From Sulfurospirillum diekertiae (lineage in GTDB: Bacteria; Campylobacterota; Campylobacteria; Campylobacterales; Sulfurospirillaceae), in the NCBI RefSeq assembly GCF_002162315.1, contig NZ_CP021416.1, positions 682,001 through 746,000 on the forward strand: a stretch of DNA of 64,000 nt, given 5' to 3'. Within the stretch, counting starts at the first letter, position 1, and the number at the start of each line of letters is the position of its first letter. A model generated the notes under the pieces. The model made no database searches. It was not told the origin of the DNA and was given only the letters and a program-made list of their open reading frames with translations. Below are positions 5,448 to 59,995 of this stretch, one piece after another. The translations under genes were made by a program, and so were the position numbers.

Positions 5448-5656
5448 GTTTAGTAGTTTGCCTCGCCTGGGTGAAGCGACAACCGTTTTCATGAGGGTCC
5501 AACAATTAGTATACGGGAATACGTACATTTTTGGTGTGCCTGTGGTTTCGTTTGAGCTTTGTAAAAAGTGAGAGATTGCAGCCTAAAGAAAAGGTCGACT
5601 CCCAGAAGTTGGCTTATTAGGGCCGCTTCAATCACGGAACGCTCACTTGGGTTTTT
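5448..5656 (+). ncRNA. ssrS: 6S RNA
   Basis: A roughly 210-base untranslated block between hemD and purD, the position I recall for 6S RNA in Campylobacter and Helicobacter. Its ends pair to close a long hairpin: 5466-5478 (CCTGGGTGAAGCG) pairs with 5640-5651 (CGCTCACTTGGG) with one bulged A and G-U pairs, and the closing stem is followed at once by T5, so it doubles as a terminator. 6S RNA mimics an open promoter and sequesters the housekeeping RNA polymerase holoenzyme. The 5' end is placed from the TATAAT at 5435 and is approximate. I have not folded the central bubble. A TTTACATGTAAA element overlaps the terminator T-run. An ORF across this block on the minus strand is considered spurious. 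Confidence 0.75.
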
Positions 5657-5665
5657 ACATGTAAA
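5654..5665. repeat. TTTACATGTAAA element, copy 5
   Basis: Perfect copy in the short gap between the 6S RNA terminator and purD; its first bases are part of the terminator T-run. Confidence 0.95.
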
Positions 5666-29764: not shown

Positions 29765-30567
29765 AATCTTTACATGTAAAGAGTGTCTTACTCTGTTTTA
29801 TGATGAGTGCGGCGCTTCATGCCACAAGTCTAACCCTCAGCGGTAGCGTTATATCGGAGAATCAAAAGAGTCTCTCTAGCCGTTATATGGGCTATGTCAA
29901 GCGTGTGTATGTCAACGAAGGTGATGTGGTGAAAAAAGGGACACTGTTGTACAGCATTGACTCTAAAGAGGTGGACACAGCACGGGAGCAAAGTGATCTT
30001 GCTATTGCGCAAGCGGAGCTTTCGTTATCGACGGTTGAAAATCAGTATGCCAATGCCAAACTCAATTTAGAGCGCTATGAGCGTTTACTGGCAAAAGATA
30101 TGGTGTCTAAGTATGAAGTGGAAAACTTGGAGCTTGCTACGACAAATCTTAAGGCAACCGTAGAGATTGCTCGAAAACAGGTCTCTTCTGCCAAGCAAAA
30201 ACGCCAAGAGGTACAAAACCAGTACCAGTACCTTAACATCAAAGCACCCAATGACAGTGTGGTGATTGAAAAGCATATCAAAGAGGGCGAGATGGCACTT
30301 TCAGGCGTGACCACCGTAGTGCTTGCTGATTTGAGTGCGCTCAAAGTCACAACGGAGATTGCAGAGAGCTACTTGGGTCGTGTGAAAGTAGGGGATATCG
30401 CGCGTGTGGAAGTTCCGTCCATTGGGTGTATTAGTGAAGGAAAAATCGAAGCAATTATTCCTAGTTCCAACCCTATGGCGCACACATTTAAGATGAAACT
30501 CTCTTTTACATGTAAAGATGCCAAAGCGTACCCAGGAATGTATGCTGTGGTGAGCGTCGGTGAGTAG
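29761..30567 (+). CDS. RND efflux periplasmic adaptor (membrane fusion protein)
   Basis: A 268-residue HlyD/AcrA-type adaptor linking the pump to the TolC-like channel. The order is a signal peptide (VLLCFMMSAALHA), a barrel-sandwich half (SRYMGYVKRVYVNEGDVVKKGTLLY), a coiled-coil hairpin (about 70-150), the second half (YLNIKAPNDSVVIEKHIKEGE) and a beta-barrel. It is shorter than most AcrA-like proteins because the membrane-proximal domain is minimal. GTG 29761 is the start and overlaps the preceding stop. TTTACATGTAAA occurs twice, read LHVK at the very N-terminus and FTCK near the C-terminus. Confidence 0.9.
   Translation: MKSLHVKSVLLCFMMSAALHATSLTLSGSVISENQKSLSSRYMGYVKRVYVNEGDVVKKGTLLYSIDSKEVDTAREQSDLAIAQAELSLSTVENQYANAKLNLERYERLLAKDMVSKYEVENLELATTNLKATVEIARKQVSSAKQKRQEVQNQYQYLNIKAPNDSVVIEKHIKEGEMALSGVTTVVLADLSALKVTTEIAESYLGRVKVGDIARVEVPSIGCISEGKIEAIIPSSNPMAHTFKMKLSFTCKDAKAYPGMYAVVSVGE
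29769..29780. repeat. TTTACATGTAAA element, copy 8
   Basis: Perfect copy at codons 3-7 of the adaptor gene, LHVK frame. Confidence 0.95.
30505..30516. repeat. TTTACATGTAAA element, copy 9
   Basis: Perfect copy near the end of the adaptor gene, FTCK frame. Confidence 0.95.
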
Positions 30568-30572
30568 TGATC

Positions 30573-32165
30573 ATGAGTAAATACAAAGAAAAATACTTAG
30601 CAGGCTATTTAGCACGCCTCTTTTTACGTAATCCTCTGACGATGATTTTAGGGATCGCACTCATCTCTTTAGGAGTCGTGGCGCTCTCTTTAATGCCTCG
30701 GGAAGAAGATCCTCAGATTTCAATTAGTGGCGGTGTGGTGATTGTCTCCATGCCAGGGGCCAGTGCTGCTGAAATTGAACAGATGGTTGTGCGTCCACTG
30801 GAGAGACGCATTAAAGAGATCAAAGGTGTGGAGCATATTTACGGAGTTGCGAGCGATAATGTGGGCATTGTGAATGTCATGTATTACATTGGCGAAAACC
30901 GAGAAGCTTCGAATCTCAAGCTCTACGATAAAGTAATGCAAAACATGGATCAAATGCCTGAAGGTGCGACAACACCGCTTGTCAGACCTTTTGATATTGA
31001 CATTGATATACCGATTCTCTCTATTGCCTTTTATGCTAAAACAGCGCAAAGTGTCGATAATGTTGCACTCTATAAGCGTGTTGATGCGTTTCGCAATTCA
31101 CTTGGCAATGTCCCTAATGTCGCTAAAACAGAGATCAAAGGGGAGCATAAAGAGCAGTTTAATATTGAGATTGACCTCTCTCGACTTGCGGGGTATCATC
31201 TCTCGTTAGATCAAATAACGGCTTCCTTAAAATCACTGACCGCTTCTTCTCCTGAAGTAAAAAATCGCACACAGGAAGGAAAGCTGGTCGTTTTTGGTGT
31301 TAAAAATGCATTGGAAAATATCAAAGATATTCAAAATCTGATCGTTGCCAATTATGGCGGTTCTGTGGTGTATCTAAAAGATATTGCTACCGTTCATTTA
31401 GGCGATGACATTCAAAACAAAAAGAGTGCGCAGATCAGTTACAAGCAAGGTGAGAGTTTTACACCACTGCAAGATCAAGTCACGCTGAGTGTCTCCAAGC
31501 TGAAAGGCTCTAATGCTGTGGTTATTGCCGATGATGTGGTAAAACGACTTGAAGCAAGTAAAGGGGCATTGGCAAAAGAGGGGATTGGGTATAGTGTGAC
31601 GCGAAATTATGGCGAGCGTGCCAATGAAGCGGTCAATGAACTGGTCTTTCACCTGCTTATCTCTATTGTTATTATCGCGCTTTTACTGATTTTTATTTTA
31701 GGTTGGAGGGAAGGGCTCATTGTGACGCTTACTGTCCCTGCTATTTTGGCAATTACTATTTTTATCGCGTATATGAGTGGTCAAACGATTAACCGTATCA
31801 CCTTGTTTGCCTTTTTGCTGAGCCTTGGACTTTTGGTCGATGATGCCATTGTTGTCATCGAAAATATTCATCGTCATCTGCACAGTAAGGATGCCCATGA
31901 TAAAGAGATGGATGAACTGCTCATTGAAGCGACCGATGAGATTGGAGCTCCAACTAACTTGGCGACAATAGCGATCATTTTAACGATGGTTCCAATGGCA
32001 TTCGTAGGGCAAATGATGGGTGAATTTATGAAACCGATACCGCTGAATGTACCCGTAGCGATGCTGGCTTCGCTTTTGATCGCCTATATCTTCACACCAT
32101 TTTTAGCCAAGAAATTCTTAAAAAAACCAACGCATACCAAAGGAGAGAATGATGCAGAAATTTGA
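30573..32165 (+). CDS. RND efflux pump, N-terminal half (split gene)
   Basis: Corresponds to the first half of an RND permease. It has TM1 (TMILGIALISLGVVALSLMP), a large periplasmic loop (PN/PC domains), then TM2-TM6. The TM4 proton-relay pair is present in SLGLLVDDAIVVIENIHRHL. The protein ends after TM6 (IAYIFTPFLAKKFLKKP) and a short cytoplasmic tail, exactly at the linker that joins TM6 to TM7 in one-chain pumps. It has about 530 residues. ATG 30573 is used; the in-frame GTG 30567 overlaps the adaptor stop. The end overlaps the second half by 14-17 bp. The substrate is unknown. Confidence 0.9.
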   Translation: MSKYKEKYLAGYLARLFLRNPLTMILGIALISLGVVALSLMPREEDPQISISGGVVIVSMPGASAAEIEQMVVRPLERRIKEIKGVEHIYGVASDNVGIVNVMYYIGENREASNLKLYDKVMQNMDQMPEGATTPLVRPFDIDIDIPILSIAFYAKTAQSVDNVALYKRVDAFRNSLGNVPNVAKTEIKGEHKEQFNIEIDLSRLAGYHLSLDQITASLKSLTASSPEVKNRTQEGKLVVFGVKNALENIKDIQNLIVANYGGSVVYLKDIATVHLGDDIQNKKSAQISYKQGESFTPLQDQVTLSVSKLKGSNAVVIADDVVKRLEASKGALAKEGIGYSVTRNYGERANEAVNELVFHLLISIVIIALLLIFILGWREGLIVTLTVPAILAITIFIAYMSGQTINRITLFAFLLSLGLLVDDAIVVIENIHRHLHSKDAHDKEMDELLIEATDEIGAPTNLATIAIILTMVPMAFVGQMMGEFMKPIPLNVPVAMLASLLIAYIFTPFLAKKFLKKPTHTKGENDAEI

Positions 32166-33807
32166 GCAGTTTATTCACTCTATTTTGGTAGAAGAACGTA
32201 AAAAAAAGCTGGTCTTACTTTTCACGCTCCTCGCCTTTTTAGCAGCAGTGATGATGTTTCCCACAAAAATTGTTCTAGCCAAAATGTTGCCGGGCAAAAG
32301 TACCAATACGTTTTCGATCTATATTGATCTTCCCAATGGAAGTTCTTATCAAGAGACAAATGCCGTGAATACATGTGTGGTTAGCATCTTACAAAAAGAA
32401 AAAGAAGTTGAGAATATTGAAGTCTTTAATGGCATGGGTTCTCCTTTGGATTACGCAGGATTGGTAAAAGGCTCTGGGCTGAAGAGTGGCGAATACGTGA
32501 GTGAAATCGTGGTCAATCTCAGCGATTTGCATAAGCGTGATGAACGCTCTTTTGCAATGGTGCATCGCCTGCGCCCTATTATCCAAAAAAGCTGTGAAAC
32601 TTTAGTCGCTCAGACCTCAATTAAAATGGTGGAACAACCTGCGGGTCCTCCAACAATGGCAGCACTGGTCGTCGAACTGTATGGCGATAATGCGTCAGCG
32701 TTGAATGCACTTGGACAAAGAATCAAACAGATATTGTCTCAAACGAAAGACCTTGTGGATGTCGATATGCTGGCCGATAAACTTTTCGATAAGTATAGTC
32801 TCGTCCCCGATAAAGAAAAAGTGATTCGTTCTCATTTAAGTCTTGCGCAGATTAACGAGCTATTATATTTGAGCTTTGAAGGAGTACATGTTGCTCACAA
32901 AAACAGTGAAAGTTCTCCTTCTCAGATTCCACTTTATGTGGTTTTGAGTGAATCTTCTAAATCACTTCCTTATGCTTCTAAAGAGGAGTTAAGTGCCAAA
33001 CTAAGTGCATTAAAGCTGATGAATACGCAAGGCATGATGGTACCACTCTCAGAAGTGGTGCGTGTCGAAAAAGTGAAGTCAACGCCAACCATTATGTCCA
33101 AAAATTTGCAGACAATGGTGAGCATCGTTGCCGAAGCAGATTTGGTTTCTCAAGTGTATCCACTTTTGGATGCGCGCAGTCGTATTCAAGATACTTTGAA
33201 AGACGAGTTTGAAATTAGTCGAAGCCATCTCTTTGATTTAACACTCAAAGACAAAAAGAGTGGTGAAGTATTTAATCTTGTCTGGGATGGTGAAATGAAA
33301 GTAACGATGGATACGTTCCGAGATCTTGGCGGAGCTTTCATTGCGGCGCTGATTTTGATTTTCTTGTTAATGGTCGTTTACTATAAAAGCTTTGCACTCT
33401 CTGGTATTGTGCTTTTAGGAAGTTTCCTCTCCATCATTGGGGTGATTGTTGGGCATTGGATCATGGATCTGTTCACATCAACAACTTTCTTTCTCACAGC
33501 AACGTCGCTGATTGGTTTTATTTCATTGATGGGTATTAGTTCACGAAATGCACTGTTATTGATTGATTTTACCAAGGCGTTAATGACTCAGGGAATGGAT
33601 AAACAAGAGGCGATTGCAAAAGCGAGTGCTACCAGAGCAAAACCGATTGTTCTTACTGCTGCTGCAATTATTTTAGCGAGTACATTGCTGGCAACCGATC
33701 CTATTTTTGGTGGATTGGGTGTTGCATTGATCTTTGGAACAATTGCGGCGGTTATCGTATCGTTAATTGTTGTTCCTGTACTCATGAGTAACACGAAAGC
33801 GATCTAA
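32152..33807 (+). CDS. RND efflux pump, C-terminal half (split gene)
   Basis: Second half of the pump, about 551 residues: a cytoplasmic start (MQKFEQFIHSILVEERKKK), TM7 (LVLLFTLLAFLAAVMMFPTK), a large periplasmic loop (LPNGSSYQETNAV; SIKMVEQPAGPPTMAALVV) and TM8-TM12. The TM10 region reads GISSRNALLLIDFTKAL; the usual TM10 Lys of HAE pumps is Arg here. AGGAG lies six bases before ATG 32152, so this half has its own ribosome binding site and is not a simple frameshift product. The A8 run at 32200-32207 is in frame. Downstream is a strong terminator made from two TTTACATGTAAA elements. Confidence 0.9.
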   Translation: MQKFEQFIHSILVEERKKKLVLLFTLLAFLAAVMMFPTKIVLAKMLPGKSTNTFSIYIDLPNGSSYQETNAVNTCVVSILQKEKEVENIEVFNGMGSPLDYAGLVKGSGLKSGEYVSEIVVNLSDLHKRDERSFAMVHRLRPIIQKSCETLVAQTSIKMVEQPAGPPTMAALVVELYGDNASALNALGQRIKQILSQTKDLVDVDMLADKLFDKYSLVPDKEKVIRSHLSLAQINELLYLSFEGVHVAHKNSESSPSQIPLYVVLSESSKSLPYASKEELSAKLSALKLMNTQGMMVPLSEVVRVEKVKSTPTIMSKNLQTMVSIVAEADLVSQVYPLLDARSRIQDTLKDEFEISRSHLFDLTLKDKKSGEVFNLVWDGEMKVTMDTFRDLGGAFIAALILIFLLMVVYYKSFALSGIVLLGSFLSIIGVIVGHWIMDLFTSTTFFLTATSLIGFISLMGISSRNALLLIDFTKALMTQGMDKQEAIAKASATRAKPIVLTAAAIILASTLLATDPIFGGLGVALIFGTIAAVIVSLIVVPVLMSNTKAI

Positions 33808-33812
33808 AGAGA

Positions 33813-33824
33813 TTTACATGTAAA
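33813..33824. repeat. TTTACATGTAAA element, copy 10
   Basis: Perfect copy; left arm of a paired-element hairpin. Confidence 0.95.
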
Positions 33825-33836
33825 GCATAAGGGAAC

Positions 33837-34004
33837 TTATCGCTTTACATGTAAAAATTTTCTGCGGGTTAAAATCAATAAGCGCATCATGCGAAAAGCA
33901 AAAAGACGTTTGTTCATAATGCTAATTTTGCGACAATTCTCATTTTTTAAACATTCAAATACTTCTTCTAATGCCAATTTCTCACTTACAGATAAGTTTG
34001 TCAT
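33837..34004 (-). CDS. small basic protein downstream of the XRE regulator
   Basis: A 55-residue open frame too short for standard filters: MTNLSVSEKLALEEVFECL, then a basic segment (NENCRKISIMNKRLFAFRMM) and a hydrophobic, basic end with LHVKR encoded by a TTTACATGTAAA. The ATG overlaps the stop of the XRE gene (ATGA), which is the main reason to believe in it. I do not recognise a family. It might work with the regulator as a cofactor or antitoxin-like partner, but that is only an inference from the overlap. Confidence 0.5.
   Translation of the reverse strand: MTNLSVSEKLALEEVFECLKNENCRKISIMNKRLFAFRMMRLLILTRRKFLHVKR
33844..33855. repeat. TTTACATGTAAA element, copy 11
   Basis: Perfect copy; right arm of the hairpin and also the last codons of the 55-residue ORF. 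Confidence 0.95.
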
Positions 34005-34249
34005 ACCGTTCCTTTTTGCCCGTCATTGATCTTACGCACTAATCTCACAATATCTTCATCTTTTAACATACCCAACATATTAAAAACTACTGGAATGCCC
34101 ATAGGAGCGCTACTACCGAGTCTCCACTCTTGATAGGTACGCATGGATATTCCAAAAGTTTCTGCCATCTTTTTTTGAGAAATCTTCTTCCCCATATTTT
34201 CGGCTTCAATGGCATTATGCAAAAGATTGATGATATCGCTTGTTTTCAT
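34001..34249 (-). CDS. XRE-family helix-turn-helix regulator
   Basis: An 82-residue DNA-binding protein. Residues about 22-45 (ISQKKMAETFGISMRTYQEW) form a classical helix-turn-helix of the Cro/XRE type. The ATG at 34249 is chosen since the five codons before it begin with TTG and overlap the promoter. On the minus strand a TATAAT lies only three bases upstream of the ATG, so the transcript is probably leaderless or nearly so. Three GTATTA repeats spaced 20-21 bp lie upstream and overlap the start region, as expected of an autoregulator. It overlaps the following small gene by 4 bp. Confidence 0.75.
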   Translation of the reverse strand: MKTSDIINLLHNAIEAENMGKKISQKKMAETFGISMRTYQEWRLGSSAPMGIPVVFNMLGMLKDEDIVRLVRKINDGQKGTV

Positions 34250-59289: not shown

Positions 59290-59339
59290 GTTACATGTAA
59301 AGATAACATACTTTACATGTAACCCTTCCATTTTGTTTT
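59290..59339 (+). terminator. terminator made of two repeat variants
   Basis: GTTACATGTAAAG (59290-59302) pairs perfectly with CTTTACATGTAAC (59311-59323) around the loop ATAACATA; a T-rich tail (TTTTGTTTTTT) follows. Both arms are one-mismatch TTTACATGTAAA copies, with compensating changes at the outer ends. Confidence 0.85.
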
Positions 59340-59954: not shown

Positions 59955-59995
59955 AAAAGCTTTACATGTAACGTTTACATGTAAAGCTTTTTAGG
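59955..59995 (+). terminator. terminator made of two repeat copies
   Basis: AAAAGCTTTACATGTAA (59955-59971) pairs perfectly over 17 bp with TTACATGTAAAGCTTTT (59975-59991) around the 3-base loop CGT, followed by T's. The left arm is a variant copy (ending AAC), the right arm the perfect copy. Confidence 0.85.
59974..59985. repeat. TTTACATGTAAA element, copy 22
   Basis: Perfect copy, right arm of the terminator before dnaE. Confidence 0.95.

Follow-up and report, generated by a model that had tools for sequence, protein, structure and literature searches.

The ends of genes in Sulfurospirillum diekertiae carry hairpins whose two arms are copies of one short palindromic repeat. These paired arms probably act as an RNA hairpin that ends transcription or defines a stable 3' end, possibly in both directions, and comparison among genomes indicates that the structure is kept even in species where the repeat itself has decayed.

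In the window, the whole 64-kb stretch of DNA that was analyzed, two copies of TTTACATGTAAA are read from the sequence at positions 33813 to 33824 and 33844 to 33855 of the plus strand, where they pair as the 5' and 3' arms of a hairpin. Inside them, the inner 5' arm GCATAAG (33825 to 33831) pairs with the inner 3' arm CTTATCGC (33836 to 33843), GC (33825 to 33826) with GC (33842 to 33843) and ATAAG (33827 to 33831) with CTTAT (33836 to 33840), giving a stem of 12 + 2 + 5 = 19 bp around the loop GGAA (33832 to 33835). These inner pairs vary across species with compensating changes. An initial annotation of this DNA had described a stem of about 19 bp with a GGAA loop and repeat copies at 33813 and 33844, which is right save for one bulged cytosine, C33841. 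RNA folding gave −24.4 kcal/mol for the plus strand (z = −7.7, with 0 of 200 shuffles equally good) and −20.8 kcal/mol for the minus strand (z = −7.7). Rfam returned no match at this hairpin or at those at 59.3 and 59.97 kb.

The setting is convergent, as had also been claimed, with an RND half-gene on the plus strand facing minus-strand open reading frames (ORFs). The half-gene (32149 to 33807; PF00873) encodes the C-terminal portion of an AcrB-type RND transporter and is split from the part at 30567 to 32165, and the hairpin begins 5 nt past its stop codon; a stable RNA hairpin thus lies directly past the stop codon, as in intrinsic terminators. From the other side, a 55-amino-acid ORF ending in RRKFLHVKR (33837 to 34004, minus strand) runs into the hairpin, and its stop codon, TAA at 33837 to 33839, lies inside the 3' arm of the stem. 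Upstream of it, and likewise convergent, is an HTH-like ORF (34001 to 34249, end approximate, minus strand) conserved in relatives; the small protein that it encodes is well conserved, overlaps the 55-amino-acid ORF and adjoins EF-P. The two flanks of the stem are nearly symmetrical, with weak U-tracts of 5 T in 8 for plus-strand transcription (AATTTTCT, 33856 to 33863) and for minus-strand transcription (TCTCTTTA as read on the minus strand, 33805 to 33812). Since the hairpin folds on both strands between such flanks, two-way action at 33.8 kb is plausible, though unproven. The bidirectional terminator proposed earlier draws comparative support from a hairpin kept genus-wide, from compensating changes and from the U-rich stretches on both flanks, whereas for minus-direction termination at 33.8 kb the case is less certain: with the stop codon of the 55-amino-acid ORF placed in the stem, a ribosome could mask the hairpin.

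The same build had been assigned to two further sites, whose copies share 11 or 12 letters with the 12-mer. The two fold as paired hairpins, but they lie between genes of the same direction rather than convergent ones. The second hairpin, GTTACATGTAAAG and CTTTACATGTAAC around the loop ATAACATA (59290 to 59323, plus strand; 13 bp, loop of 8 in the fold), is directly 3' of a chemoreceptor gene, and the next gene is also on the plus strand. The third, AAAAGCTTTACATGTAA and TTACATGTAAAGCTTTT around CGT (59955 to 59991, plus strand; 17 bp, loop of 3), sits between a 181-amino-acid ORF and dnaE, both on the plus strand. These sites need stop transcription in one direction only.

The repeat is a palindrome of 10 to 12 letters whose core, TTACATGTAA, has perfect two-fold symmetry. 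Homologs of the flanking gene place this DNA in Sulfurospirillum, the protein identity to S. diekertiae JPD-1 being 97%. The genome (G000, one contig of 2.88 Mb) contains 792 exact 12-mers, where the reversed control has 0, and the core occurs 1,245 times; 24 exact 12-mers fall in the window, against 0.03 expected. The palindrome is thus over-represented genome-wide, as in repeats of the HIP1 type. Forms of the core with one mismatch are near background, which marks it as sharply bounded, and its flanks favor C before and G after, a symmetrical preference. By our own simple ORF calls, about 38% of the copies are intergenic versus about 9% of the bases, and about 60% are in genes, where they read as LHVK/N or FTCK and never fall in the stop-containing frame. 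Genome statistics beyond pattern counts are drawn from an even sample of 464 kb together with the neighborhoods of pairs. In a 298-genome sample of the phylum, most of the genus holds 550 to 790 copies of the 12-mer and a few members hold 14 to 271; outside the genus, some neighbors have tens to hundreds and most others 0 to 3. The sites are conserved far more than the surrounding DNA, 10 of 10, 12 of 14 and 8 of 10 being intact at 93, 81 and 74% DNA identity, and lineage variants occur in S. cavolei and others. On a distant Campylobacteraceae contig (L053), CTACATGTAG replaces TTACATGTAA, which may be one more dialect. G000 has two runs of over 12 kb without the motif (G000:C1:20563-34793 and 2267639-2280000), which are unusual for this genome and are possibly acquired DNA. 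A purD RNA motif (RF01069) lies at 5523 to 5652 of the window, with a repeat copy directly after it at 5654 (region 5523 to 5665). A literature search with the 12-mer and the 10-mer returned unrelated matches and no published description of the repeat, which is apparently undescribed; from the matches listed in a viral scan with CTTTACATGTAAAG, no reading is drawn.

The 12-mer equals its reverse complement, so that every close pair is automatically an inverted one; what is informative is how the pairs are spaced and placed, how far their stems extend and how well they are conserved. In G000, 52 pairs have a spacer of 2 to 32 nt, versus 16.7 expected at uniform density, an excess that falls below threefold when the crowding of copies in intergenic DNA is taken into account; 23 pairs have a spacer of 33 to 63 nt. 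The initial annotation had made its reading depend on pairs outnumbering the expectation from single-copy density, which they do. Although the genome is about 91% coding, 39 of the 52 pairs are intergenic (15 convergent, 22 same-direction and 2 divergent), mostly a few nucleotides past a stop codon, and 13 are inside genes. A 12-nt spacer occurs in 11 of the 39 intergenic pairs (p = 3e-8) and in 0 of the 13 coding pairs. The stems of intergenic pairs run past the repeat (inner positions 1 and 3, outer positions 1 and 2; p = 0.0002 to 0.016), an extension that is absent from the 13 coding pairs; since several statistics were examined, a p of about 0.01 carries little weight alone. At outer positions 4 to 9, T makes up 51% in intergenic pairs, 39% in intergenic singles, 36% in coding singles and 33% in coding pairs, and the enrichment of intergenic pairs over intergenic singles (p = 0.0003) is about equal on both sides. 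TTTT is present in just 27% of the gene-facing flanks of pairs, and the U-tracts of gene-end hairpins are weak whether or not the arms carry the motif, at 3.3 T in 8 over a background of 2.8. The sampled motif stems are AT-rich (28% GC), and a simple terminator scan called the hairpin at 59290 and missed that at 33813.

Several relatives have lost most of the repeat. In the motif-poor species G146, 49 copies of TTACATGTAA remain, and no dialect was found in the 80 kb examined; the motif-poor genomes G146, G182 and G306 nevertheless retain 4, 12 and 9 pairs, versus 0.03, 0.6 and 0.3 expected. Among the four pairs of G146 are the orthologues of the hairpins at 33.8 and 59.3 kb, the latter with both copies intact and a different loop, and the 59.97-kb hairpin persists there with one copy mutated. 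When the gene-end pairs of G000 were placed on G146 via their flanks, a perfect stem of at least 10 bp was present at 13 of 16 orthologues, versus an intact repeat copy in just 5 of these 16 gene ends; the count becomes 14 of 16 with the stem at 33.8 kb, which the perfect-stem measure misses because of its bulge. At sites of single copies, stems of at least 10 bp occur in G146 at 5 of 15 intergenic and 0 of 29 coding positions. Stems altered on both arms in G146 include those for 433626, 512880, 890157, 1472354, 1769300 and 2822329; at 512880, for example, TTACATGTAA...TTACATGTAA of G000 corresponds to TTACGTGTAA...TTACACGTAA. Over the aligned part of the window, G146 keeps the hairpin copies yet only 1 of 19 other copies (Fisher p = 0.005), and random 10-mers are intact there in 13%. 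A second motif-poor species (L063, CTSoil_042) has lost 8 of 11 aligned sites and kept both copies of the 33.8-kb hairpin. Across 16 species, the covariation score of this hairpin is 0.150, versus 0.098 when shuffled (0 of 500), and repeat-free relatives bear unrelated hairpins at the same gene end. The 13 of 16 stems kept with 5 intact copies, the changes on both arms and the 0 of 29 coding singles indicate that selection acts on the structure of the gene-end hairpin, separately from the repeat, in a test of compensating changes that rests mainly on one species, G146, and applies equally to RNA and to DNA (cruciform) structure.

Kept in relatives that have lost the repeat, these gene-end hairpins very probably terminate or protect mRNAs; most likely they serve to stop transcription or to define the 3' end. 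As the RND gene is transcribed, its two repeat copies would pair in the nascent RNA, and the hairpin with the U-rich stretch after it would end transcription or set a stable 3' end. With its near symmetry of stem and flanks, the same DNA may also serve the convergent minus-strand operon. Where the stems lie, and their conservation at gene ends, would be accounted for equally if they only blocked 3' exonucleases and defined a stable mRNA end, with termination being Rho-dependent or diffuse. The weakness of the U-tracts at motif and non-motif hairpins leaves room for such a protective stem after Rho-dependent termination, whereas the symmetrical U-rich stretch found at intergenic pairs only is what an intrinsic terminator needs and an exonuclease block does not; protection as the sole function appears unlikely. 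It is far less probable that no hairpin is selected and that the pairs are a by-product of copies piling up in permissive intergenic DNA and adjoining by chance. Crowding of copies in intergenic DNA would alone raise the number of close pairs, and a quarter of the pairs (13 of 52) do lie inside genes; the preferred spacer, the stem extension, the flanking U-rich stretch and, above all, hairpins conserved after loss of the repeat already contradict this explanation, as do the pairs kept by the three motif-poor genomes. A terminator (or 3'-end) function of the hairpins is well supported but unproven. A separate second role of the repeat would keep its roughly 1,250 copies in G000, and since the repeat is self-complementary and any close pair forms a stem, gene-end hairpins may be places where two copies are held at little cost.

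Two readings of that second role, each compatible with the hairpin proposal, were weighed. That a DNA-binding or DNA-modifying protein (a chromosome-organizing factor, a HIP1-like methyltransferase or a regulator) recognizes the palindrome, with gene-end pairs secondary, falls a little short of an even chance. It is consistent with the perfect two-fold symmetry, the sharp specificity of the core and copies that are spread more evenly per 20 kb than random (variance/mean 0.31 to 0.39, p = 0.001 to 0.004); strict local even spacing is not supported, as the gaps in G272 are irregular (CV 0.89, p = 0.16), and no candidate protein was identified. In its favor also is a conserved pair, TTACATGTAATAAT...ATTATTACATGTAA, that brackets TATAAT between flgL and ftsK (G000:C1:1572039-1572085, L085; also L273 and L281); kept even in the motif-poor G146 and G182, it is possibly an operator of the ftsK promoter. 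A more tentative reading, rather doubtful on present evidence, is that the palindrome marks DNA for uptake or self-recognition and that the gene-end pairs are its terminator-associated form. Copy number, site conservation, lineage variants and frequent gene-end pairs agree with it, and the repeat is dense in the repair gene pair sbcCD; against it, the repeat has neither an oriented sequence nor an oriented flank preference, whereas to our knowledge all known uptake sequences are oriented and non-palindromic. ComEC (PF03772) and T2SSF-family (PF00482) genes are present in every genome at least 90% complete, including those where the repeat has been lost; they do not explain motif abundance and neither support nor exclude uptake, because motif-poor genomes have both. 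The dehalogenase region (1480 to 1560 kb), a possibly recent acquisition that G146 seems to lack, shows no depletion, its density of 33 copies in 80 kb being average. The literature search found no report of natural transformation in this genus.

The sbcD-sbcC pair (G000:C1:1494914-1496979; L343, L347) contains ten TTACATGTAA copies in 2.1 kb, and relatives with 91 to 95% identical SbcC contain 7 to 10. Homology covers only a cassette of about 3.7 kb, which sits at different places from genome to genome, and in four genomes all that is left is a short remnant retaining both ends; sbcCD looks like a mobile or deletable cassette. SbcCD was considered as the partner of the motif, but it was not found in the motif-rich G056 and is thus not the cause of motif abundance.

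Among known systems, the uptake signal sequence (USS) of Haemophilus influenzae and other Pasteurellaceae is a genome-wide repeat with stem pairs at gene ends, and its core, AAGTGCGGT, is non-palindromic and tied to competence. The Sulfurospirillum repeat resembles it in genome-wide distribution and gene-end stem pairs and differs in being palindromic, with a putative link to competence. USS has been treated as a functional analogue of the DNA uptake sequence, or DUS (PMC2397512), of which close inverted pairs in Neisseria have been described as Rho-independent terminators and occur in all genomes with DUS dialects (PMC2397512, PMC3630211); DUS is reported to be scarce in recently acquired DNA (PMC2397512). 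Like the DUS of Neisseriaceae (PMC2397512, PMC3630211), the present repeat is short, numbers about 1,000 or more copies, occupies conserved sites, has lineage dialects and forms hairpin pairs after genes. Unlike it, TTACATGTAA is palindromic, so that its pairs need no inverted orientation, belongs to a different phylum, has a putative uptake role and builds hairpins that outlive it in relatives. The parallel with uptake sequences drawn initially accordingly stands for copy number and gene-end pairs, not for an oriented sequence, and is one of analogy: the Sulfurospirillum elements may work like DUS-pair terminators, and membership in an uptake-sequence family is not established. HIP1 (GCGATCGC) of cyanobacteria, a highly iterated palindrome linked to orphan methyltransferases (PMC4390886), shares the perfectly palindromic short unit, the very high copy number and the low numbers in some lineages (PMC4390886), whereas the present repeat is strongly enriched in intergenic DNA and builds gene-end hairpins, and the methyltransferase link is HIP1's. 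The 33.8-kb site is also like ordinary bidirectional intrinsic terminators, with a symmetrical hairpin between convergent genes and U-rich stretches on both sides, and unlike them in having arms that are genome-wide repeat copies, AT-rich stems and weak U-tracts. REP/BIME elements, extragenic palindromes of 20 to 40 nt, do not fit a unit of 10 to 12 nt with most copies in genes.

The loss of the repeat in some species is a natural experiment: the repeat decays and the stem is preserved by changes on both arms, which allows the function of the structure to be told from that of the repeat itself. The chances are evenly balanced that TTACATGTAA is a DNA-recognition signal for uptake or for marking the chromosome, the first palindromic one in Campylobacterota, and that an as yet unnamed reader maintains it at about 1,000 or more sites in most Sulfurospirillum species, with variants among lineages, loss in some species and a place in gene-end hairpins that outlive it. 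The repeat poses a directly testable question, namely, which factor reads it, and the paired hairpins are a useful way in. Should the repeat serve uptake or self-recognition, it would be the first palindromic signal of that type known to us, and natural transformation would become accessible in a group used to clean up chlorinated solvents.
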